From the IMG/VR virus record IMGVR_UViG_3300047546_003519, positions 1 through 34,606 of that record: DNA of 34,606 nucleotides. One strand, 5' to 3'. A program made the position numbers and the translations under genes. How positions within the stretch are numbered: the stretch's first letter is position 1; each line of letters opens with the position of its first letter. Source of the DNA: a virus. Of this stretch, positions 5,124-34,606 are shown in pieces. The notes below the pieces were generated by a model. It worked only from the letters and a program-made list of their open reading frames with translations, had not been told where the DNA came from and did not search any database.

Positions 5124-7664
5124 TTAACACTGTTGTGGGTCGTCCCAGAAGGGACCGGAACCCGGATCACACCGCAATACGGCCCCTGAAGACGAGGAAG
5201 TGGACAACCATTGTGGTTTGCCATCACTTCCAAGAATAAGCACAGCCCCGCTGGAACCTTGATCCGGGGTAATGGTTAGCCATTCCTGACTATCTCCATC
5301 GAAATAGAGCATTGCCCCGTTTACGGGCGCTATGTTGATCGGCACCCATTTGGTTTTCCCGGCATTCCACGCGATCAGGTCACCTGTATTTTCACCGTCC
5401 TCTACAAACAAGGCTTTCTGCGTACCGTCTTCGTCCGTGTGCTCGATCTTGTTCTTTTGAACGGACATCGAATCCGTGCCGTCGCTCAAGTATAAATTTG
5501 GTTCGCTACCATCCACGAATAGCTTGGCGTAGGTGCTACCGCCGTCGTTGGTTAAATAAAGCGTAGGAGAGCCGCCTTCCACGGCGAGTTTCACCTCATT
5601 TGCGGAAGCATCCTGCAAATCCACCTCAGGATCGCCATCTGTAATCTTCGAGGAAATAAACGCCTTGCTCTGATCGTAGAGCATTGCGCTTGGCTCGCTG
5701 TCTTTAGAAATGCTGAGTTCGTTATACGAACCAGTATCCTCGTCATCAAAACGTAGCGAGGGCTGCTCAACCAGCGTTAGCGTTGCTCGTTGCTTATCCT
5801 TTAAGAGCTTAATTTGCGGACCATCTCCACCGTCCCCAGCTTGAACTGCGAGCGACAATTTCTTGGTTCCGCCTTTTTCATCCTCAAGCGAAATCTCAGG
5901 AATATCATCACTTACTTTTGCTGTGATGGACTTGTCGTTCTCGTCCTTCAATGCGAGCCACGGACGGTTGTTATCGAGAAATGCCTTGATGCGGTTAGAT
6001 GAATCTTCCTTCTCGTAATTGTCATTGAGGGAAATCTCGGGCCCGGAGTCCGTGAGAGTGGCACGAATTTCCGCCTTGTTTGTATTCCTTACAGTCAGTT
6101 TTGGCCATTCCACCCACTCCAACTTGATTTTGTTAGGCGCATCGCTGTCCCCATACTGGAAACGTAATTCGTCATTTTCAGTCCCGTTGTCATCCCCAAC
6201 TACAAGTGAAATAGAGCTGGCGGTTTCATCCTGTGGGTTCAGAGCACGGAGGCCGATAGCTTTAAGCGGATCAGGGGCCTTTGGTACAAAACTCGACTCA
6301 ACTGCGCCAAAAGCGATCGAATGTCCGTCCGCTGGCGTGCCGCTCCCAACAAGCCATGGCGGGACTCCACTTGCCGCTTCAAGTGCTGCAGGAATGGCAC
6401 ACACAAGCGATTTAAGTTCTCCGCCATCGGTCGCTTCACCTTTTTCAATGGCACGCGTCATCTCAAGGTGGTCTCGCACGTACTGCGTTACAACAGGTGC
6501 TCCGCTCCCGTCCGCATCCACTGTGGCTAGAACAATGGATGCGCTAGTTTGAGTAGGGTAATCCTCGCCATCGGTCACAACGGTACCGCTCCATTCGTCT
6601 CCAGCAAAATCACTCTTGATAGAAGCGGCGGTGACTTCCGGCCATTCGCCAAACTCTACCTCAAGCCATACCCGACCCCAGCTGCCATTCCACTGAGTCC
6701 ATCCATCTGAATCCCCGTAAATAAGTCCATCCACCATCAATTCGGGAACTCCGCCGCTCCAGTCTTTCGATGTAAACAACCGCGACTCGCTCTCCACTCC
6801 TATCAGGTAAGTATCAGGATTGTTAGGATCGGATTTCGTGCGAACCGCAAACGGTTCATAGGTCGTACCCTTCTTTCCAAACTCCCAAGGTGTTTTTGCG
6901 TCGGTTTGATCGACGATTGGCGCGCCGCTTCCATCTGAAACAGTACCAGGCTGGGTATGCGGAAGGGTAACGAGCAGATCCAGCCCCGGATAACTCGCCG
7001 AATCTAAAGCGTTGGCCGGTACTAACAGCAGGTTGTTTTTAAGGGCCTGCACAACCTTTACTGGCGACGCTCCTTCCCAGGGCGTTACAAGTAGCCCGTC
7101 CCTCGAATCCGAATCCGGGTCGCTCACTTCGGCTATCAATTCGCGATAAAATTCCTGAAACGGCGTTGAGTCCGTATTGATACCGATTGGATCCGGATAG
7201 TTCTCCCAATCTTCACTGGCTACAGCGCCATAGCGGATACTGATTCCTTGAATGTTCCGCCGGGAATCCAGCGTGATTTCGAGCCAGATCTTTTCACCAG
7301 TCGCAGGAACTTCAAATGCACCGTCTGTTCCTTGACCGCTCCAAAGCCCCCACGAAGCATTGTCTTCCTCAAGGCCCTTTGCCGTCAGAGCATTGATGAT
7401 GTGCCCGTAATTGACCCCAAGTTTAGCTGGCTGGTTAGCCTCTGAAGGCACAAGAACCACCTGAAATGGCGTCACAGGAAGCGTCGCAGCTATGCGGCCG
7501 CCACTCTTTGGCAGATCGACCGCCAGCGTCGTGCCACTTGCCGTGCGTTGGATACGTACTCCTGCTCCCGGACTGACTTGAGAAGCGCGTACAAAATCCA
7601 CGAGCGCATTCCAGTCGGCGGCTTTTATGGGGTCACCCGGTTTTACTTTTGAGGGGAGAGCCAT
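5124..7664 (-). CDS. Large repeat-containing tail protein, 846 aa
   Basis: The N-terminus (KVKPGDPIKAADWNALVDFV) is of a kind seen at the start of phage tail-tip or fibre proteins. From about residue 535 to 740 the chain is built of about nine repeats of 19-23 residues. Each has a hydrophobic strand, a Pro near the middle and an acidic turn, for example ISLEDEKGGTKKLSLAV, PTLYLTNDGGSTYAKLFV and PNLYLSDGTDSMSV. This suggests a beta-solenoid or stacked-strand shaft. The C-terminus is Ser/Gly-rich. It starts two bases after the upstream gene ends and probably forms a long side or central fibre. Confidence 0.65.
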   Translation of the reverse strand: MALPSKVKPGDPIKAADWNALVDFVRASQVSPGAGVRIQRTASGTTLAVDLPKSGGRIAATLPVTPFQVVLVPSEANQPAKLGVNYGHIINALTAKGLEEDNASWGLWSGQGTDGAFEVPATGEKIWLEITLDSRRNIQGISIRYGAVASEDWENYPDPIGINTDSTPFQEFYRELIAEVSDPDSDSRDGLLVTPWEGASPVKVVQALKNNLLLVPANALDSASYPGLDLLVTLPHTQPGTVSDGSGAPIVDQTDAKTPWEFGKKGTTYEPFAVRTKSDPNNPDTYLIGVESESRLFTSKDWSGGVPELMVDGLIYGDSDGWTQWNGSWGRVWLEVEFGEWPEVTAASIKSDFAGDEWSGTVVTDGEDYPTQTSASIVLATVDADGSGAPVVTQYVRDHLEMTRAIEKGEATDGGELKSLVCAIPAALEAASGVPPWLVGSGTPADGHSIAFGAVESSFVPKAPDPLKAIGLRALNPQDETASSISLVVGDDNGTENDELRFQYGDSDAPNKIKLEWVEWPKLTVRNTNKAEIRATLTDSGPEISLNDNYEKEDSSNRIKAFLDNNRPWLALKDENDKSITAKVSDDIPEISLEDEKGGTKKLSLAVQAGDGGDGPQIKLLKDKQRATLTLVEQPSLRFDDEDTGSYNELSISKDSEPSAMLYDQSKAFISSKITDGDPEVDLQDASANEVKLAVEGGSPTLYLTNDGGSTYAKLFVDGSEPNLYLSDGTDSMSVQKNKIEHTDEDGTQKALFVEDGENTGDLIAWNAGKTKWVPINIAPVNGAMLYFDGDSQEWLTITPDQGSSGAVLILGSDGKPQWLSTSSSSGAVLRCDPGSGPFWDDPQQC

Positions 7665-7666
7665 TT

Positions 7667-8317
7667 TTAAGTCCGGTTGTAGATTTCACGGTCCCATCCA
7701 CCGGCTCCGCTCGCCCGGTACTCTCGGGTCACTTTCCATGTGGAAGAACCCACTCTTTCCGCGTCTACACCTACGAGCAGCCAGTTTCGACCATCCGGAA
7801 GGCTCGGTGCTCCCGGCGGCGATTGAATTCGTCCAATTCCGCCAAGATCAGGTCCACTTTGCCCTTCCTGACTTACTCGCATTGTGACTGTTCCTAGCAG
7901 GTAATCGTCTATACCACGGTTACGGTATGCGTAGTACTTCTTCATGCCAGTTGAGGCATCGTCACCATCTGGCTTCCAACCAGCCAGATCCGGGTCGCGA
8001 GGATCTGTTTCCCAGAGCTTCCACTTTTTCCATTCGTCATCCTCGATGCCGTAGCCTCCATCGGAACCAAACATGGGATGCGTACCAATAGGCTCCTGAC
8101 TCACTCCTCCCGTAATGGTGTAGGTTGCGTCCGCGCCCCCCGTAAGCAGCGTGTAACGGCTCACATACTTTCCGTCCTCGTGCGAGCGCTGGATGTTTTT
8201 CGCGCCATTAGGGATGTCAGGGTAGCTTTGAAAACTCTCCACCGTGTAGGTGGTTTCTTCTCCGGCACTCGGCGTCCAGCTGATCGATTCTGATGTGTAA
8301 ACGGAATCTCCACTCAT
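7667..8317 (-). CDS. Tail protein downstream of tape measure, 216 aa
   Basis: I do not recognise the family. The chain is rich in Gly, Asp, Trp and Tyr with no long hydrophobic segment, consistent with a compact beta-rich virion protein. The first codon overlaps the tape measure stop (ATGA), so it is probably translated with it. In siphoviruses this position is usually held by the distal tail protein or a tail-tip protein, so that is the likely role by position only. No catalytic motif is visible. Confidence 0.6.
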   Translation of the reverse strand: MSGDSVYTSESISWTPSAGEETTYTVESFQSYPDIPNGAKNIQRSHEDGKYVSRYTLLTGGADATYTITGGVSQEPIGTHPMFGSDGGYGIEDDEWKKWKLWETDPRDPDLAGWKPDGDDASTGMKKYYAYRNRGIDDYLLGTVTMRVSQEGQSGPDLGGIGRIQSPPGAPSLPDGRNWLLVGVDAERVGSSTWKVTREYRASGAGGWDREIYNRT

Positions 8318-11605: not shown

Positions 11606-12054
11606 AACAGAGAAAGAATACGATCACGCAGGGCGGCATCTGCTCCCTGTGGTACGAGTGCCAGTCGGTTCCCTCGGCGTACAATGAGGAGCGGTTTGTT
11701 TTCCCGAATCTGCTCTTGGAGCTTCATGTATGTTTCGTAGAACCACGCCATGTAGGCGATCGGATGGTGCGGATTGTTTTTCCGCCACTCCGCGTCCTTG
11801 AAACGCCGGATGAACTCAGCCGTCGTGATCGTTTCCGCCTTAAACTCCGGGGAAAAATCGATCTCCATGTCCTTGAGGCACCACACGGTCTGGCGTTTGG
11901 GCTGTTTGGTGTTCGGATCCTCTTCAATCGTATGCAGAAAGGGACGGTCTCCAGAAAGCTCGATGCCACTCGTGGTGGCTGCTGCAACAATCGCAGTGTT
12001 CCGGCTTTTGAGCGGAGACTCGTTGTCTTTGAGGATGTGAAGGCGTCTTTCCAT
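11602..12054 (-). CDS. Tail-region protein, 150 aa, unknown
   Basis: I do not recognise a family. The sequence is of mixed charge, with a basic segment (LLIVRRGNRLALVPQG) near the C-terminus and a helical region around ITTAEFIRRFKDAEWRK. It lies between two paralogous tube-like genes and the G chaperone and overlaps the latter by four bases. Position suggests a tail assembly role or an upstream partner of the chaperone. No catalytic motif is seen. Confidence 0.55.
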   Translation of the reverse strand: MERRLHILKDNESPLKSRNTAIVAAATTSGIELSGDRPFLHTIEEDPNTKQPKRQTVWCLKDMEIDFSPEFKAETITTAEFIRRFKDAEWRKNNPHHPIAYMAWFYETYMKLQEQIRENKPLLIVRRGNRLALVPQGADAALRDRILSLL

Positions 12055-12056
12055 GT

Positions 12057-12374
12057 TTAGGCGCTGGGGTAGTTGGTGCCGGAGTATTCGAAGCTCTCGA
12101 AATCGTCGTTCTTCTGGCTGTGTTTCACTTTGAGGATCAGCGTTGTGCCTCCCGAGATCGTTGAAATACCCGAGGCACCAACGCCAACGGCCATTGAGGT
12201 GTCGCCACGGCCCTTCACCGAAAATTCAATCGTCGGATCAAATGCCTGTCCCTGACCGAATCCGCCTTGGGAGTCTTTAATCACCTTTTCCTCAACTTTC
12301 CGCTCCCACTCGACGGATTCAAGCAGGGTGCCGCTCGCTTGAGAGATTCCAATGCTGGTTGGTCCTGCTGGCAT
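12057..12374 (-). CDS. Tail tube-like protein, paralogue 1, 105 aa
   Basis: A small beta-rich protein with a segment VEEKVIKDSQGG, then FSVKGRGDTSMAVGVG, then a C-terminal KNDDFESFEYSGTNYPS. The same three elements recur in the next gene upstream. The shared layout points to a duplicated gene. Place in the order (after head-tail connectors, before the chaperone and tape measure) fits the major tail tube protein or a tube-related protein, which is an inference. There is no clear ribosome binding site. Confidence 0.6.
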   Translation of the reverse strand: MPAGPTSIGISQASGTLLESVEWERKVEEKVIKDSQGGFGQGQAFDPTIEFSVKGRGDTSMAVGVGASGISTISGGTTLILKVKHSQKNDDFESFEYSGTNYPSA

Positions 12375-12411
12375 ACAAATTACAGAGAAAAAGAGTTACC
12401 TACACGCGGTC

Positions 12412-12717
12412 CTAGGAGTAGCTGACGCCCGTGATTTCAAATGATGGGAAGTCGTCGTTGGTTTCGGTGTTTTTGACGGAGGTCACTTTTACCGAACCCG
12501 ATATTGGTCCGGCCGTGGCCATGAGGCTGCTCGTGCCGCGTCCTTTGATAGTTACGGTAGTTTTGACCATCCGGCTCGGCACTGCCCGGCAGGTGGTACC
12601 GGTCTCGTCCCGGATGGTTTTGGCCTCCACCTCATCCTCGGAACTGGATTCCTCCACCACGCCCCCGGAAGGCTTGGAGAGACCGAAGTTGTCACTGACT
12701 CCAAAATTCGCAGGCAT
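12412..12717 (-). CDS. Tail tube-like protein, paralogue 2, 101 aa
   Basis: It shares with the downstream 105-residue protein an EVEAKTIRDETG segment, a VTIKGRGTSSL segment and an ETNDDFPSFEITGVSYS end, so the two are paralogues. The N-terminal third differs. It has the best ribosome binding site of the tail block (AAAGGAG, seven bases before ATG), which fits an abundant protein such as a tail tube subunit. Two related tube-like genes could encode a tube and a tube-tip or a decorated form. Confidence 0.6.
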   Translation of the reverse strand: MPANFGVSDNFGLSKPSGGVVEESSSEDEVEAKTIRDETGTTCRAVPSRMVKTTVTIKGRGTSSLMATAGPISGSVKVTSVKNTETNDDFPSFEITGVSYS

Positions 12718-12719
12718 TG

Positions 12720-12920
12720 CTATTCTCCTTTGAGTATAAAATCAGCACGGTAACTCCCGTCCGCGCGTCGGGCGAACGAGGCAGCGCCGTCCACTTTGGC
12801 CACCTCTTCGGGAGCTGCGAAAATCACGATGTAATGACAGCTACCTTCACAAACGGGCATGTAGCTTTGGATGGTGCCGCCAACCTTGGTAATGGCTTCC
12901 TGAATGGGCTCTGGAATCAT
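12720..12920 (-). CDS. Small tail-region protein, 66 aa
   Basis: A short protein with a SYMPVCEGSCHYIVIFAAPEEV segment (two cysteines four apart) and an ADGSYRADFIL end, suggesting a small beta domain. It overlaps the stop of the tail terminator-like gene and ends two bases before the tube-like gene. No family is recognised. The start ATG at 12920 is 12 nt after a GTTGACAC copy, which in turn lies within the end of the previous coding region. Confidence 0.6.
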   Translation of the reverse strand: MIPEPIQEAITKVGGTIQSYMPVCEGSCHYIVIFAAPEEVAKVDGAASFARRADGSYRADFILKGE

Positions 12921-24866: not shown

Positions 24867-25415
24867 TTAGAGTTTGGTGTAAAGTTCTGCAAACCAGCGC
24901 AGTTCGTTTTTGAGGATGCGTCTGGAGTCCTCCGGCCACGTGTTGAGCGGGTCGGCATCCATCCGCTTGTTGAACCAGAGGCGGAACCCGTCGAGGTAAC
25001 GTGTGAACTTTACCCACGGCTTGTTGGGATCAGGCGCTTGCTGCCTGTTCTCCTGGACGGGCAGCAGGCCAATGGCGACGAATGCCTGCCGTAAACTGGC
25101 GGCGTCTTTCAAATTACCACCACTGGTGGTAATTTGCTCCTTCTCGGTGTCCGCCACAGATTCATGCGCAACCTTGGCTATCTGCATGTATTTGCGGACG
25201 GTTTCCCGCTTCATGTCAGGCAGGTTTTCGGCCTGCCAATCCAGCCAGCTTCCATGGCCAAGTGCTGCCTTCTGCTGGATAAGCAGTTGGCCACACTCGA
25301 TGGCTTTGGCTACGGCCTCCGAGGCGTAGCCTTTTGCCTGTTCCGCAAAAGCATGGGCTTGTGCGTGAGCCGCCAAGATTTGATCGGCTAGATTGATTTG
25401 GATTTCTTCGGTCAT
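24867..25415 (-). CDS. DUF3102-like protein, 182 aa
   Basis: Residues about 20-85 have the pattern of DUF3102-type proteins: AKAIECGQLLIQQKAALGHGSWLDWQAENL, then KRETVRKYMQIAKVA, a winged-helix or HTH-like end. These occur on plasmids and phages and are thought to bind DNA. The C-terminal part is basic and aromatic (KPWVKFTRYLDGFRLWFNKR). It may regulate replication or early genes. The start ATG at 25415 follows an ATTGACAA copy by 13 nt. It also overlaps the upstream stop. Confidence 0.65.
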   Translation of the reverse strand: MTEEIQINLADQILAAHAQAHAFAEQAKGYASEAVAKAIECGQLLIQQKAALGHGSWLDWQAENLPDMKRETVRKYMQIAKVAHESVADTEKEQITTSGGNLKDAASLRQAFVAIGLLPVQENRQQAPDPNKPWVKFTRYLDGFRLWFNKRMDADPLNTWPEDSRRILKNELRWFAELYTKL

Positions 25416-25981
25416 ACCGCTGGCTTCGTTGTCAATTTGTGGCGTTCATGGACGGCCTTGGCTCGTTCGCGGTACGCAACCCGTGAGCGTTTGGACTTCA
25501 TTGCGCGTGAGGGAGGCAGGCCAAACTTCACGCACCACTCCACGGCTATCTTGGAGAAGGCTTGCTTTGTAACACCATGCCGTGCTGCCAATTCCGTTGC
25601 ACTCTGCCCCTCCATTGCAAGAATGCCAGTGCCATAGCAAACCGCATCAAATACGAGAGCCGGGTTAGAACAGCCCCTCATTCTGGCGCAAAACGACGCC
25701 AGAGCATCTCCACAAACTTCTGTGGTTGTTACACCTGATGGCTTTTCGCCGTCGATATGTTCCACAATATCTGAGGGTGCCGACGCCAGTGAGGAGTCGG
25801 CCAAGTCCCTGTCAAAACGGGCATTTGATCCATGGTAGTTGATGTCTGGGCGATCGATTCCGAGGCTGCGTAATTGCGCACGCTCTGCCTCTGGGAGCGT
25901 GTCAACCCAGCGGCGATAATCCTCCGCATGTTGGGCATCTCTCTGCGCCTGCCTGAGCGCGTAGGCGTTGTCTTCGCTCAT
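25412..25981 (-). CDS. HTH DNA-binding protein, 189 aa
   Basis: The C-terminal third has a helix-turn-helix (GQSATELAARHGVTKQAFSK) and a basic end (RAMKSKRSRVAYRERAKAV). The N-terminal part is acidic and helical without recognised motifs. It is probably a phage transcription regulator (inference). GGAGG lies eight bases before the ATG, which overlaps the stop of the upstream gene (ATGA). A GTTGACAC octamer at 25899 is inside the coding region (WVDTLPEAE) and is not linked to a start. Confidence 0.65.
   Translation of the reverse strand: MSEDNAYALRQAQRDAQHAEDYRRWVDTLPEAERAQLRSLGIDRPDINYHGSNARFDRDLADSSLASAPSDIVEHIDGEKPSGVTTTEVCGDALASFCARMRGCSNPALVFDAVCYGTGILAMEGQSATELAARHGVTKQAFSKIAVEWCVKFGLPPSRAMKSKRSRVAYRERAKAVHERHKLTTKPAV
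25429..25436 (-). promoter_or_regulatory. ATTGACAA start-associated variant
   Basis: Two mismatches (first and last base). It lies 13 nt before the ATG of the DUF3102-like gene at 25415, within the end of the HTH gene. Confidence 0.4.
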
Positions 25982-26451
25982 GGCCGACCTCCGCTTTTAA
26001 GGCTTATTTTCGACCCTCCGGCCCGCATTTCGACCACTGTGGCGGACCGCATGAAAAATGGCCGTTTTTGGGCAACCTCGTACGATCTTGAGGTATCTGC
26101 TGCATGGGGCGCGGCGCCAGCTTGACGCATTTTCGCCCGCCAACGCAGCCCTTCAATGGCCGCATGGTCACCATCATCCCTATGAGCTGACTTGAGGTCC
26201 CGGCCCTTTTTTGGGGGGTTAGGGTAAATTAAGGCATAACAAGTCTTCAGCGACTCAAGAACTCGTGCACTGGTGCTCTTAAGCACATCAGTGCATGCGA
26301 ACTTCGTTTTAACGATTCGCACTGATATACTACGTATATCTATCTCGCAGATAGTCTCGCACGAGACAGGCTCGCGCTTACGGGACTGGTCTCGTTGTGT
26401 GCGAGACTGTCCTGAAATCGGCAACGAGATCAAATTGAGGTCAGCTGACAT
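25978..26451 (-). CDS. Basic hypothetical protein, 157 aa, spanning a palindrome cluster
   Basis: No family is recognised. The chain is rich in Arg, Lys and Ser and has no clear domain, with a basic segment KKGRDLKSAHRDDGDH in the middle. Evidence that it is translated: GGAGGGG ten bases before the ATG at 26451, overlap with the primase-helicase end on one side and with the HTH gene (ATGA) on the other. The upstream half (26267-26407) is full of inverted repeats, so the DNA may have a second role. It is also possible that the frame is open by chance. Confidence 0.45.
   Translation of the reverse strand: MSADLNLISLPISGQSRTQRDQSRKREPVSCETICEIDIRSISVRIVKTKFACTDVLKSTSARVLESLKTCYALIYPNPPKKGRDLKSAHRDDGDHAAIEGLRWRAKMRQAGAAPHAADTSRSYEVAQKRPFFMRSATVVEMRAGGSKISLKSGGRP
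26267..26407. repeat. Cluster of inverted repeats, candidate origin or operator array
   Basis: At least six inverted repeats occur in 141 bases. GATATAC-TAC-GTATATC (26324-26340), CTATCT-CGC-AGATAG (26340-26354) and GTCTCG-CA-CGAGAC (26354-26367) lie end to end, sharing border bases. GTCTCG and CGAGAC recur at 26389-26394 and 26402-26407. On the other side are GTGCT-CTTA-AGCAC (26273-26286), GCAC-TG-GTGC (26267-26276), and ATCAGTGC at 26287-26294 pairing with GCACTGAT at 26319-26326. The area is richer in A and T than its surroundings. Confidence 0.65.
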
Positions 26452-28477
26452 AGTTGCGGCCCCTCCAGAGCTTTGTTGAGCGTTCAAAAACGATCGGTCC
26501 GTTCTTCCCCCGGCTGCTCATGCACGCGAACGCGTGGTAAATGCGGGTGCCTTGCGCGAGCGAACATTCGCCCTCGGCCGTCGCGACTCTCTGACAGATG
26601 TAGGCCACCACATCAGACAATGAAGGGTCCCTGTCGTTTTTGAGCGGAGGCATCGTCTCGCACAAAGGGCCGTATTTTTCGGCCAGACTCCCAACCTTAT
26701 ACGTTGCCTTGGAGGGTTTTGCTTCGGCCTTTGCAGCACGCAAACGGCTGGGGTCAGCGTCGTTGTTTCGCTCGAACTGCACGCCCCGCCACTGGACCAC
26801 AAAAGCCTCTACTGGAGGCAGCGCTCTTATCGTCAGATCAACGACATACGCATCCTTTTCCTCATGCGGCGTCATGGTCAAAATCACGTCCGGGTCACGT
26901 GCAAATACGCCCGAGCCTCCGATGCGATCGATGGCGTCTTTTCCCGCCTGGTTGCCCTTGCTGTAGTGAGCACCAAATACCACGGCCGCACCGGATTGCA
27001 CGGCGAGCTGTTCGATCTCGTTACAGAGTGAGGCAATGTCGCCCGCCTTGTTCTCGTCGCGCTTTCCAAGTCCTTTGTAAACAGGATCAAGCACGATCAG
27101 CGAATACCGGCACTCCTTGATCCGGGAGAGGATCTTAGGAATTAGCTCGGAGAAATCCGTGGCGAATCCGCGTAGATTCCAAAGGTCGCATTCTGAAAAA
27201 TCGCCGATGCTCTTTGCGGCAGCGACCGCCCGAAGCCGCGCTTGGAATGCGAATTCGGGCAGCTCGAAGTTGATGTAGAGCACGCGCCCCTGCTGGGTCT
27301 GAAAACCCCACCACGGACCACCCGAGGCCACGGAAAGAGTGAGATCAATGAGGCTCCAGGATTTCCGGGCTTTGCTGGCTCCACCGATGATCATTTTACA
27401 TCCCTGATGCAGCACGCCAGCAATGAGTTGCGGCGGCTCAGGTCGAGGCGTTGCCATGAACTCTTGGGCACACACAATCTTAGGCAGGCCATCGGGCGAA
27501 TTGGCCGTTTCCCACTCCGCCCATGACTTCGCACCCAGCCCCACGGCGAGGAGTTGTTGCCGTCGTTTCTCGCCATCCACAGTGCGCCACCCGTCCGGGC
27601 AGCGCGAGAGGCGGGATGGATTCTTGTTCTGTTTGTCCAGGGAGAGGCCGTCGAGCCAGTCCCACACAATGTCAACGCGGCGGCGGTATTCCGCAGCATC
27701 GGGCGCATCGACCCGCACCCATGCGTGGATCGATTTGTTGCCGGAATCGATCACAACGGACACAGGCAACCCACTCGATACAATCGCTCCGAACTGCACG
27801 TCCTTCGGGATAGTCTCGCCCGCTTCATTGCGGTCGAACTCCACGAGCGCATGCCGAAACGCGGTCACGTCCTCGTTTTTCGCCCCGTCTTTCTGCATGG
27901 GGTTGAGGCGAATATAGAGGCCGAGCGTTGTCGAAAAACACCTATCGATGCCGCCTTTATTGGCCACCCGCTTTTTCCACTCTTCCACCTCCAGCGTGAC
28001 GCCCCGCTTGGGCATCACGTTGCCTTCGCCGTCCTCGCCAGCGGGAGCAATCGCCACGAATTCGCCCGGCTTAAAACACGCATCCAGCAGCCTCGTAAAC
28101 CCGCCTTCTATCGCCGTTGGTAGCGGCAAAGGTTCAGACGAGAACTTTGGACCGGATGACCGCAAAGACTCCGGTTTATGCGCGTTTCGTTGGGCAGCGG
28201 CCGGTGAAGGAGCGGCTCCGACGGAGGCTGCTTCCCGGGGCACATGAGCGAATGCGGAACGAATCGTGGTTCGCGCTTCAAACTCGCCAAGGCCATCGGA
28301 AATGGCTCGCGAGAGCAGCCGGTTCTCGGCTTCGGCCGCAGCAATTCCGGCATCCCTGAACTGGCAGGCGGCATCGAATAACTCGGCGTTGCGCTGCCCT
28401 TCGGGAGCACCGTGAGCCAGATAATCGAGGGTTCGTTTCGGGAGATTTTGATTGGGAGCAAGTGAACGGTATTTCAT
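26441..28477 (-). CDS. Primase-helicase, AEP-like and RecA-like domains, 678 aa
   Basis: The middle part (about 205-300) has the order typical of archaeo-eukaryotic-type primases: LVEFDRNE (Glu213-Asp215), a SIHAWV with His251, and NPSRLSRCPDGWR near 286-298. The C-terminal part is a RecA-like ATPase of the RepA/AAA_25 type: GGASKARKS at 365-373 (Walker A), a SLIVLDP with Asp464 (Walker B), and FGAHYSKG near 501-508. The N-terminal 90 residues are helical. Together they would unwind and prime DNA in phage replication. Confidence 0.8.
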   Translation of the reverse strand: MKYRSLAPNQNLPKRTLDYLAHGAPEGQRNAELFDAACQFRDAGIAAAEAENRLLSRAISDGLGEFEARTTIRSAFAHVPREAASVGAAPSPAAAQRNAHKPESLRSSGPKFSSEPLPLPTAIEGGFTRLLDACFKPGEFVAIAPAGEDGEGNVMPKRGVTLEVEEWKKRVANKGGIDRCFSTTLGLYIRLNPMQKDGAKNEDVTAFRHALVEFDRNEAGETIPKDVQFGAIVSSGLPVSVVIDSGNKSIHAWVRVDAPDAAEYRRRVDIVWDWLDGLSLDKQNKNPSRLSRCPDGWRTVDGEKRRQQLLAVGLGAKSWAEWETANSPDGLPKIVCAQEFMATPRPEPPQLIAGVLHQGCKMIIGGASKARKSWSLIDLTLSVASGGPWWGFQTQQGRVLYINFELPEFAFQARLRAVAAAKSIGDFSECDLWNLRGFATDFSELIPKILSRIKECRYSLIVLDPVYKGLGKRDENKAGDIASLCNEIEQLAVQSGAAVVFGAHYSKGNQAGKDAIDRIGGSGVFARDPDVILTMTPHEEKDAYVVDLTIRALPPVEAFVVQWRGVQFERNNDADPSRLRAAKAEAKPSKATYKVGSLAEKYGPLCETMPPLKNDRDPSLSDVVAYICQRVATAEGECSLAQGTRIYHAFACMSSRGKNGPIVFERSTKLWRGRNYVS

Positions 28478-32716: not shown

Positions 32717-34606
32717 ATGCAATCACAGCTTCCACCCACTGCAGCCTTTCACCGGATCAAACGCCTGCGTGTTATTGGCGGGTTCCTCGACGGCACCGAT
32801 ATCGAATTCTGCGACGGACTAAATTGCCTGATTGGTCCGCGTGGTGCGGGCAAAAGCACAATTCTTGAATTGATCCGTTACGCCCTTGATGTGATGCCGG
32901 GACGGGACGGCGATCCACTGCGCAAGCGCATTGATGGCGTAATCACCCACAACCTCGACGGGGGCCGTGTCGAGCTGGAGGTCGAGACAAAGGACTCCAT
33001 GGTATATAAGATCATTCGCGCCGCCGAAGAGGAGCCCATTGTTCTGGATGCCAACGAGTCGGCAGTCTCTTTGAAGAGTTCCCGACTCATTCCCGCCGAC
33101 GTGTATAGCCAGAACCAGATGGAAAGCATCGCCGAGAAGCCGCATTACCAGTTAGATTTGCTCGATAAATTCGCGTCTTGGGAGCTGTTCGAGATCGAGG
33201 GAGAAATTGAGGGGGTTACGCAGGCGATCCGATCGAATACCAGTCAACTACTTCCCCGTCTCCAACAACGGGATCGCTTGGCCGAACAGATCAAGGAGAA
33301 AGCAGTCGTGGAGGAAAAGCTCAAAACCTTCGCGAAATCCGGCGGGGACAATGCCGAAGCAATTAACAAGGCGCATGGCCTAAAGGCGCTGCGCGATCGG
33401 GAGGACCGCGCTTTTGATTCCTCCTGTGAGGCGGTGAAATCCATCGCGATGAAGCTCAAAGGCGTCACAGGGATGCTGGCCAGTGAAGTGCCGCCGATTT
33501 TCTCCCAAGAGATGCTCGGTGGGCCAAATGCTAGGTTCATGGATGACGCTCAGAAGACTCTCCAAGTTGCGGCAGCTGATGTAGACCGGATCCTTGAGGA
33601 AGCTGTCGATCGGCTACGTGCAGCGCACGAGACCCTGAGGAAGCTGCGAGGGGGGCTCGAAACCGACCACTCCGCCCAGGAGATCGAATTCAAAAAATTG
33701 ATCGAGAAGTACAAGGAAGCCCAGTCGCAGTCGGCAGAACGCGCCAAAGTGGAAAAGCGACGAAACGAGCTGCTGTCCATGGAGCGGCAGTTGATCGACA
33801 TCAATAAACAGATCACGGCTCTGGAGGAGGATCGCATGCAGCTCATGGCCAAGCTCTCCGATCAACGCGATGAACGATTCAATGCTCGGCAAGGAGTCGC
33901 CAAACGGCTCAACGAACACCTACAGCCGGCCATCAAGATCGAGGTTAAGCAATTTGGGGAACGCACTGAGTATCGGCAGCTCATCGAGCGGGCCCTAGCG
34001 AACGCCGGAGTGAAAAAGCAGGTGGTTGCCAGTCGGGTATCAGCCAACGTGCCACCCTCAGAGCTCTATGATATTGTCCGCCGCCAAGCGACAAAGGAGT
34101 TAGTTCAACGCTGCGAGCTCAACGAAAATCAAGCGGCGGCGATCATCATGGAAATGCAGAAGCCGGAAAACCTCTACGAGCTCGAGGTGGTAGAGATGGA
34201 CGATCTGCCCTCCATCCAGCTCCGAGACGGGGATGACTATAAAGATTCGGCCTCTCTGTCTACCGGCCAAAAGTGCACGGCCATCCTGCCGATCTTACTT
34301 TTTGACAGCGCAAACCCGCTCCTGATCGATCAGCCTGAAGACAACCTCGATAACGGATTTGTCTTCGGTACCGTAGTCAAAAGCATACGGAAGGTTCACG
34401 GGACAAGGCAGCTGATCTTCGTGACCCATAACCCGAATATTCCGGTCCTAGGGGAGGCTTCCCGAATCATCTTGATGCACTCTGACGGTCGCGCCGCACG
34501 TCCACGGGCGGTTGGCGATGTGGACAGCTGCAAAGATCACATTGTCCTGCTCCTGGAAGGGGGAAAAGAAGCCTTCCAACGACGAATGGAGCGCTACCAA
34601 TATTGA
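32717..34606 (+). CDS. SMC-like AAA ATPase, 629 aa
   Basis: GPRGAGKST at 40-48 is the Walker A. Near residue 514 is LSTGQKCTAILPILLF, the ABC signature, followed by LLIDQPEDNLD (Asp538, Walker B, with QPED) and FVTHNPNIPVLG near 568. The middle (about 160-410) is coiled coil. The C-terminal half resembles ATPases found in anti-phage or DNA repair systems (TrlF-like and others), but no PHP or other nuclease domain is visible. The ATG has only a weak Shine-Dalgarno sequence. It may be a phage cargo gene or belong to the host side of a prophage. Confidence 0.65.
   Translation: MQSQLPPTAAFHRIKRLRVIGGFLDGTDIEFCDGLNCLIGPRGAGKSTILELIRYALDVMPGRDGDPLRKRIDGVITHNLDGGRVELEVETKDSMVYKIIRAAEEEPIVLDANESAVSLKSSRLIPADVYSQNQMESIAEKPHYQLDLLDKFASWELFEIEGEIEGVTQAIRSNTSQLLPRLQQRDRLAEQIKEKAVVEEKLKTFAKSGGDNAEAINKAHGLKALRDREDRAFDSSCEAVKSIAMKLKGVTGMLASEVPPIFSQEMLGGPNARFMDDAQKTLQVAAADVDRILEEAVDRLRAAHETLRKLRGGLETDHSAQEIEFKKLIEKYKEAQSQSAERAKVEKRRNELLSMERQLIDINKQITALEEDRMQLMAKLSDQRDERFNARQGVAKRLNEHLQPAIKIEVKQFGERTEYRQLIERALANAGVKKQVVASRVSANVPPSELYDIVRRQATKELVQRCELNENQAAAIIMEMQKPENLYELEVVEMDDLPSIQLRDGDDYKDSASLSTGQKCTAILPILLFDSANPLLIDQPEDNLDNGFVFGTVVKSIRKVHGTRQLIFVTHNPNIPVLGEASRIILMHSDGRAARPRAVGDVDSCKDHIVLLLEGGKEAFQRRMERYQY

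Follow-up and report, generated by a model that had tools for sequence, protein, structure and literature searches.

The stretch of about 190 bp directly behind the primase-helicase gene (26266-26451, minus strand) is probably the replication origin of this Verrucomicrobiota phage. The window is IMG/VR virus record IMGVR_UViG_3300047546_003519 (34,606 bp), and in the nucleotide search it had no match among named phages. The first-pass annotation had offered two roles for a chain of palindromes at this place. The origin is supported by the recurrence of hairpins and a repeat module, with different sequences, behind the same primase in relatives; the strong operator is less favoured, no sigma-70-like promoter being found at the element.

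All three of the abutting palindromes that had been described are present and share border bases: 26324-26340 (stem 7 bp, loop 3), 26340-26354 (stem 6 bp, loop 3) and 26354-26367 (stem 6 bp, loop 2). The eight-pair inverted repeat was also recovered, with arms at 26287-26294 and 26319-26326. The palindromes are real and not chance occurrences. Among 2000 dinucleotide shuffles, 2 produced at least three such hairpins per 141 nt; the mean for the window is 0.13, and no 141-nt stretch elsewhere in the window contains three. Folding of 26217-26440 was not equalled by any of 200 shuffles, either as DNA on the plus strand (z -5.95) or as RNA on the minus strand (z -5.19). The recurring TCTCG/CGAGA words are likewise found: six of the 36 CGAGAY copies of the window lie within 89 bp (Poisson P about 8e-10), and with direct and inverted copies of a short word at regular spacing they are of the iteron type. 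The region had been called AT-rich; its GC content is indeed below that of the window, but only mildly (50% vs 56%), with 40% in 26296-26350.

On the minus strand, following transcription, the element consists of the repeat array followed by three structures designated P1, P2 and P3. The array holds the copies CGAGAT (26425..26430, plus strand), CGAGAC (26402..26407, plus) and CGAGAC (26389..26394, minus), and a proximal module (26342-26367) that is conserved as a unit. The sites of this module are a (CGAGAC, 26362..26367, plus), which is inverted relative to the others, b (CGAGAC, 26354..26359, minus) and c (CGAGAT, 26342..26347, minus); the inverted copy is followed after 2 nt by a direct copy and this, after 6 nt, by a second direct copy, which is separated from P1 by 1 nt. 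P1 (26324..26340, minus) is the AT-rich hairpin or palindrome GATATAC-GTA-GTATATC. P2 (26296..26321, minus) is a hairpin with a 2-nt bulge on the 3' arm, and the abutting P3 (26266..26295, minus) has its 2-nt bulge on the 5' arm. P2 and P3 are alike in shape, not in sequence. Because the bulges are on opposite arms, P3 on the plus strand has the form of P2, and each strand thus offers one hairpin with a 3'-side bulge. The palindromes first described correspond to these conserved units in part: 26324-26340 is P1 and 26354-26367 comprises two of the three module sites, but 26340-26354 is not a conserved unit.

The element lies within an open frame of 157 amino acids (25978..26451, minus strand). 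The frame begins with a purine-rich, SD-like stretch and an ATG at the end of the primase gene, and its TGA overlaps the ATG of the next gene, which encodes a small protein with an HTH-like stretch (25412..25981, minus). The spacer from P3 to this next gene (26266-25981) is about 280 bp, clearly longer than in the relatives, and the frame is open throughout it.

Relatives were found by primase searches and by a DNA pattern of the hairpin core in viral contigs and Verrucomicrobiota genomes, the latter including Chthoniobacter flavus Ellin428 (L105), Akkermansiaceae and Verrucomicrobiaceae. The strict core pattern matched 14 of 23 records, with exactly one site in each, host genomes included. 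Six matches to the DNA pattern (L020, L025, L029, L031, L038 and L044) had no primase end or repeat array adjoining and were judged to be due to chance. All 51 close relatives measured, which are phages and prophages of Verrucomicrobiota, carry the same element with a different sequence right behind the primase; some of these loci are near-identical, and the distinct variants, including the window, number 35. Conservation of the palindromes in relatives, on which the earlier proposal had been made to depend, was therefore found in every case compared, as hairpins and repeat module behind the same primase.

P1 is a perfect inverted repeat in all relatives compared, with 14 different stems. Three successive hairpins were found in 35 of 35 distinct variants and in 48 of 700 shuffles (7%). 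The extra unpaired bases of P2 are on the 3' arm in 29 of the 35 variants and those of P3 on the 5' arm in 33, which gives the ssi-type layout with one hairpin per strand. A MAFFT alignment of P1-P3 placed P1 out of register, and pairs were therefore counted hairpin by hairpin. In 28 of 40 variants the proximal module spacing, common to L002 and others, gave the best fit, either exactly or with a shift of one.

The repeat word differs between lineages. It is CGAGAC in the window, CCTTAC in L002, CCTTGC in L009, GGAAC or GGGAA in L003, L096 and L105, and TTTGAACCC plus CCTTAC in many other relatives. A second, distal TTTGAACCC array is present in the 5' part of the element, besides the proximal CCTTAC-like sites, in L005, L048, L100 and most of the Akkermansiaceae and Verrucomicrobiaceae loci.

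The primase-helicase gene (26441..28477, minus strand) matches PHROG 2597, DNA primase. Its product comprises a domain of AEP primase fold (about 27497-28111), a RepA-like AAA_25 helicase (26951-27460; Pfam AAA_25, 6e-27) and a C-terminal winged helix (about 26444-26704), predicted as helix-helix-helix-beta-beta, all encoded on the minus strand. The N-terminal half was modelled with AlphaFold (pLDDT 86.8). The best matches of the AEP model were the PrimPol of cyanophage S-2L (6zp9, Z 14.7) and, tied with it, RSF1010 RepB' (3h25, Z 14.1), with other AEPs from 9.8 down, so that a RepB'-like AEP primase is encoded together with the element. The sole credible match of the helicase among solved structures was RSF1010 RepA (1g8y, E 0.004). 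The C-terminal model has three helices and a two-stranded wing; a PDB search with it gave mostly winged helices, individually weak (Z up to 5.1) and with no single convincing relative. Alignment and the secondary structure of the model place a predicted recognition-helix segment at 26513..26560 (minus strand; RIYHAFACM...); it contains an insertion of 3 residues that sets this phage apart. The primase gene of the Chthoniobacter flavus prophage (L105 / L008) appears to be frameshifted near its end, ahead of the C-terminal winged helix.

The recognition segment and the repeat word vary together. The segment (F/Y)(Y/H)C(L/F)A(N/S)MK goes with the word CCTTAC, YKCMSVMK with CCTTGC and an FD-LLRNPR-like segment with GGAAC/GGGAA, and the altered helix with the insertion in the window goes with CGAGAC. 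Word distance and recognition-segment distance were correlated when primase-body distance was allowed for (partial Mantel 0.61, p=0.0002). Because the words were hand-picked, with about four independent word classes and the relatedness of lineages not fully corrected for, this covariation is a strong suggestion, not proof. The L005 group has a diverged proximal module yet an ordinary helix. On these comparisons, the C-terminal tail of the primase appears to read the repeats.

The small HTH protein or the DUF3102-like protein had also been put forward as binder. Neither is favoured, since the word follows the C-terminal winged helix of the primase itself and the element persists where the next gene differs. 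For the HTH protein, the HTH stretch is alike by eye in L002, L005, L008 and L009 despite their differing words, and the next gene differs in further relatives. Within the DUF3102-like gene, at 25110-25136, lies the perfect 12-bp palindrome CAAATTACCACCACTGGTGGTAATTTG, which has the longest stem in the window and is possibly an operator of that gene's neighbourhood. A gene for an SMC/SbcC-like ATPase (32717-34606, plus strand) is divergent from the recombination/replication module and is cut by the end of the window.

An autoregulatory operator would explain the repeats and P1 as dyads to which the replication protein or a repressor binds, switching transcription of the operon or the next gene, with no start of replication at the site. 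Repeat words and dyads do resemble protein-binding sites and change with the winged helix, and iterons often double as replication and regulatory sites. The element is, however, situated inside an operon, between co-directional genes, and a consensus scan of 25900-26600, limited to the sigma-70-like type, revealed no promoter. The operator also leaves unexplained the opposite-arm bulges of P2 and P3, and the fixed place behind the primase although the next gene is swapped for other genes in relatives. It is regarded as unlikely. The consensus scan found no terminator at the element either.

An RNA structure within the operon transcript, serving the next gene as a leader, attenuator or translation-coupling element, would be consistent with the strong RNA folding, the covarying stems and the overlapping SD-ATG and ATGA junctions. 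The stems vary widely, but G.T pairs are few: 11 in the coding-strand structures of the 35 variants and 4 of 1037 pairs on the other strand. In RNA stems that vary, G.T pairs are usually not rare. The scarcity of these pairs, together with a translated frame whose ribosomes would traverse the hairpins, favours DNA over RNA. The gene that follows is not the same in all relatives, and Rfam gave no match in the window at gathering thresholds. A role as RNA is thus decidedly unlikely.

Packaging, attachment and partition sites also combine repeats and palindromes, and the element might be a cis site of one of these kinds. That is very improbable, as it follows the primase in every relative compared, rather than terminase, integrase or ParA/ParB genes, and its repeat word tracks the primase.

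The frame through the element is itself conserved. It is open in 51 of 51 relatives with its start and stop context kept, and in most of them its stop overlaps the start of the next gene as ATGA; in L058, L068, L069 and L076 it runs on into the next small protein. In L003 (about 6880-7700) and L096 (about 12050-12900) the element occupies, in frame, the 5' end of a gene similar to the exonuclease domain of DNA polymerase I; an origin-like site there would therefore be the start of the polymerase gene. The frame has no Pfam, PHROG or NCBIfam match. Its pN/pS among the relatives is 0.76, near the values of two other frames (0.80 and 1.06), and purifying selection on its amino acids was not detected by this measure; the value for the primase end is 0.097. 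It is a conserved open frame with scarcely constrained amino acids. The doubt expressed in the first-pass annotation, that the frame is weak and perhaps secondary, was thus justified for the amino acids but not for the frame. The contrast between 0.76 and the 0.097 of the primase rules out a conserved small protein. That the site is coding sequence only, either a small gene with repeats that arise from its amino acids or the in-frame insertion of a mobile palindromic element, agrees with the conserved frame and its start and stop context, but is extremely improbable given the pN/pS and the retention of stems and repeats while amino acids change, and the mobile element is ruled out by its single copy at one fixed place.

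Cumulative GC skew gave no consistent support for an origin in the window and five relatives. Its turning point in the window is about 1.8 kb away from the element. In the five relatives, where the element was mapped, 5-9 kb separate it from the skew extreme, whose position seems to depend on the direction of the genes, and GC skew was therefore not used as support.

At the proposed replication origin, the primase-helicase would use its C-terminal winged helix to bind the hexamer repeats, and would help to melt the adjoining AT-rich P1. The exposed strands could then fold, P2 on one strand and P3 on the other, and the AEP domain would recognise the bulged hairpins as single-strand initiation sites and start one primer on each strand, in the manner of RepB' at ssiA and ssiB of RSF1010. 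That P2 and P3 are ssi-like priming sites is a plausible idea that stops just short of being probable; it is suggested because the enzyme fold and the hairpin layout, not the hairpin sequence, are like those of RSF1010. An open frame through the site may serve to let ribosomes continue into the gene that follows, and the peptide itself probably matters little.

More distant relatives, most of them with another helicase or C-terminus, have other repeats and one large, mostly C/G hairpin right behind the primase. Their repeats are TGCTGCAA, TGCTGACA, GTGTTCC, GAGTTCC, GTGTCC and TTTTCCC. No such element was found behind the gene in L010, in which the primase match stops early, or in L121, in which the C-terminus differs. 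Six named phages with a primase 35-40% identical were also compared (Enterococcus EFC-1, Streptococcus Javan273 and Javan253, Flavonifractor Castelnaud, Paenibacillus Diane and Faecalibacterium Aster). Right after the primase gene, significant repeats were found in five of the six and hairpins of at least 7 bp in four.

Origins next to AEP primase-helicase genes are already known. What is new is the combination of lineage-specific words tracking the winged helix of the replication protein, bulged hairpins on opposite strands and an open, unconstrained frame through them. As a tentative generalization, fused AEP primase / RepA-type helicases could have a self-contained class of phage origin, in which the protein's own winged helix reads fast-changing hexamers and the primase domain reads two bulged hairpins, one per strand, all inside a translated frame. 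If so, related phages would have their origins kept separate by winged helices and words that change jointly. AEP primase-helicases occur widely among phages and mobile elements, and for many phages of a single bacterial phylum the candidate DNA partner of the winged helix is here narrowed to about 190 bp. The correspondence between word and helix predicts which protein reads which word, and together with the candidate site it opens the way to direct tests of how this enzyme class recognises origins and places primers. For uncultivated phages, a simple rule for finding the origin would be to look right behind the primase-helicase gene.

Among known systems, oriV of RSF1010 (IncQ) resembles the element in having repeats and two hairpins, one for each strand, and in its use with an AEP primase and a RepA-type helicase (PMC4434180, PMC4234260). 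Each strand has its own ssi hairpin, which RepB' recognises (PMC4434180, PMC4538821). RSF1010 uses three proteins, RepA, RepB' and RepC, whereas the phage has one fused protein with a winged helix of its own, and in place of RepC iterons there are short lineage-specific hexamers. The hairpins are similar in layout, not in sequence, and, unlike in RSF1010, the site belongs to a phage and has an open frame through it.

In Streptococcus thermophilus phage Sfi21 a 302-bp non-coding region right after the putative primase gene is annotated as the origin of replication. It is AT-rich, with nine copies of AGTAAC and with hairpins, and the genes before it (Sak4-like, helicase, SSB and primase) form a module resembling that of the window. 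A passage of PMC6356513 citing Foley 1998 describes the Sfi21 element as behaving as an independent origin and interfering with the phage. The two sites share the position directly downstream of a primase gene, a repeated hexamer and hairpins. They differ in that the primase/polymerase and the NTP-binding putative primase of Sfi21 are separate genes, and in that its origin is annotated as non-coding, has other words and has no recognised P2/P3 pair.

In plasmid pRN1, a stem-loop directly behind orf904, which encodes an AEP primase-helicase, is required for replication, and its structure is kept while its sequence is not; the same arrangement was noted in phage BIP-1 (PMC4234260). These stem-loops are like the element in being a structured site just behind the gene of an AEP primase-helicase with a C-terminal winged helix (PMC4234260), but the helicase is of the SF3 type, and there is one large stem-loop and no iterons. 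The primases of the PrimPol-PV1 supergroup (PrimQH family) in mobile elements share with the phage protein the AEP domain, a RepA-type or other helicase and the C-terminal winged helix, a likeness that is not a phylogenetic placement, and recognition of the origin by their winged helix has been proposed from protein domains and sequence (PMC5862659). The alpha protein of phage P4 is likewise a multifunctional primase-helicase and uses a winged helix to bind origin repeats, as is proposed for the present protein, but its primase is of the Toprim type where the present one is an AEP (PMC4234260).
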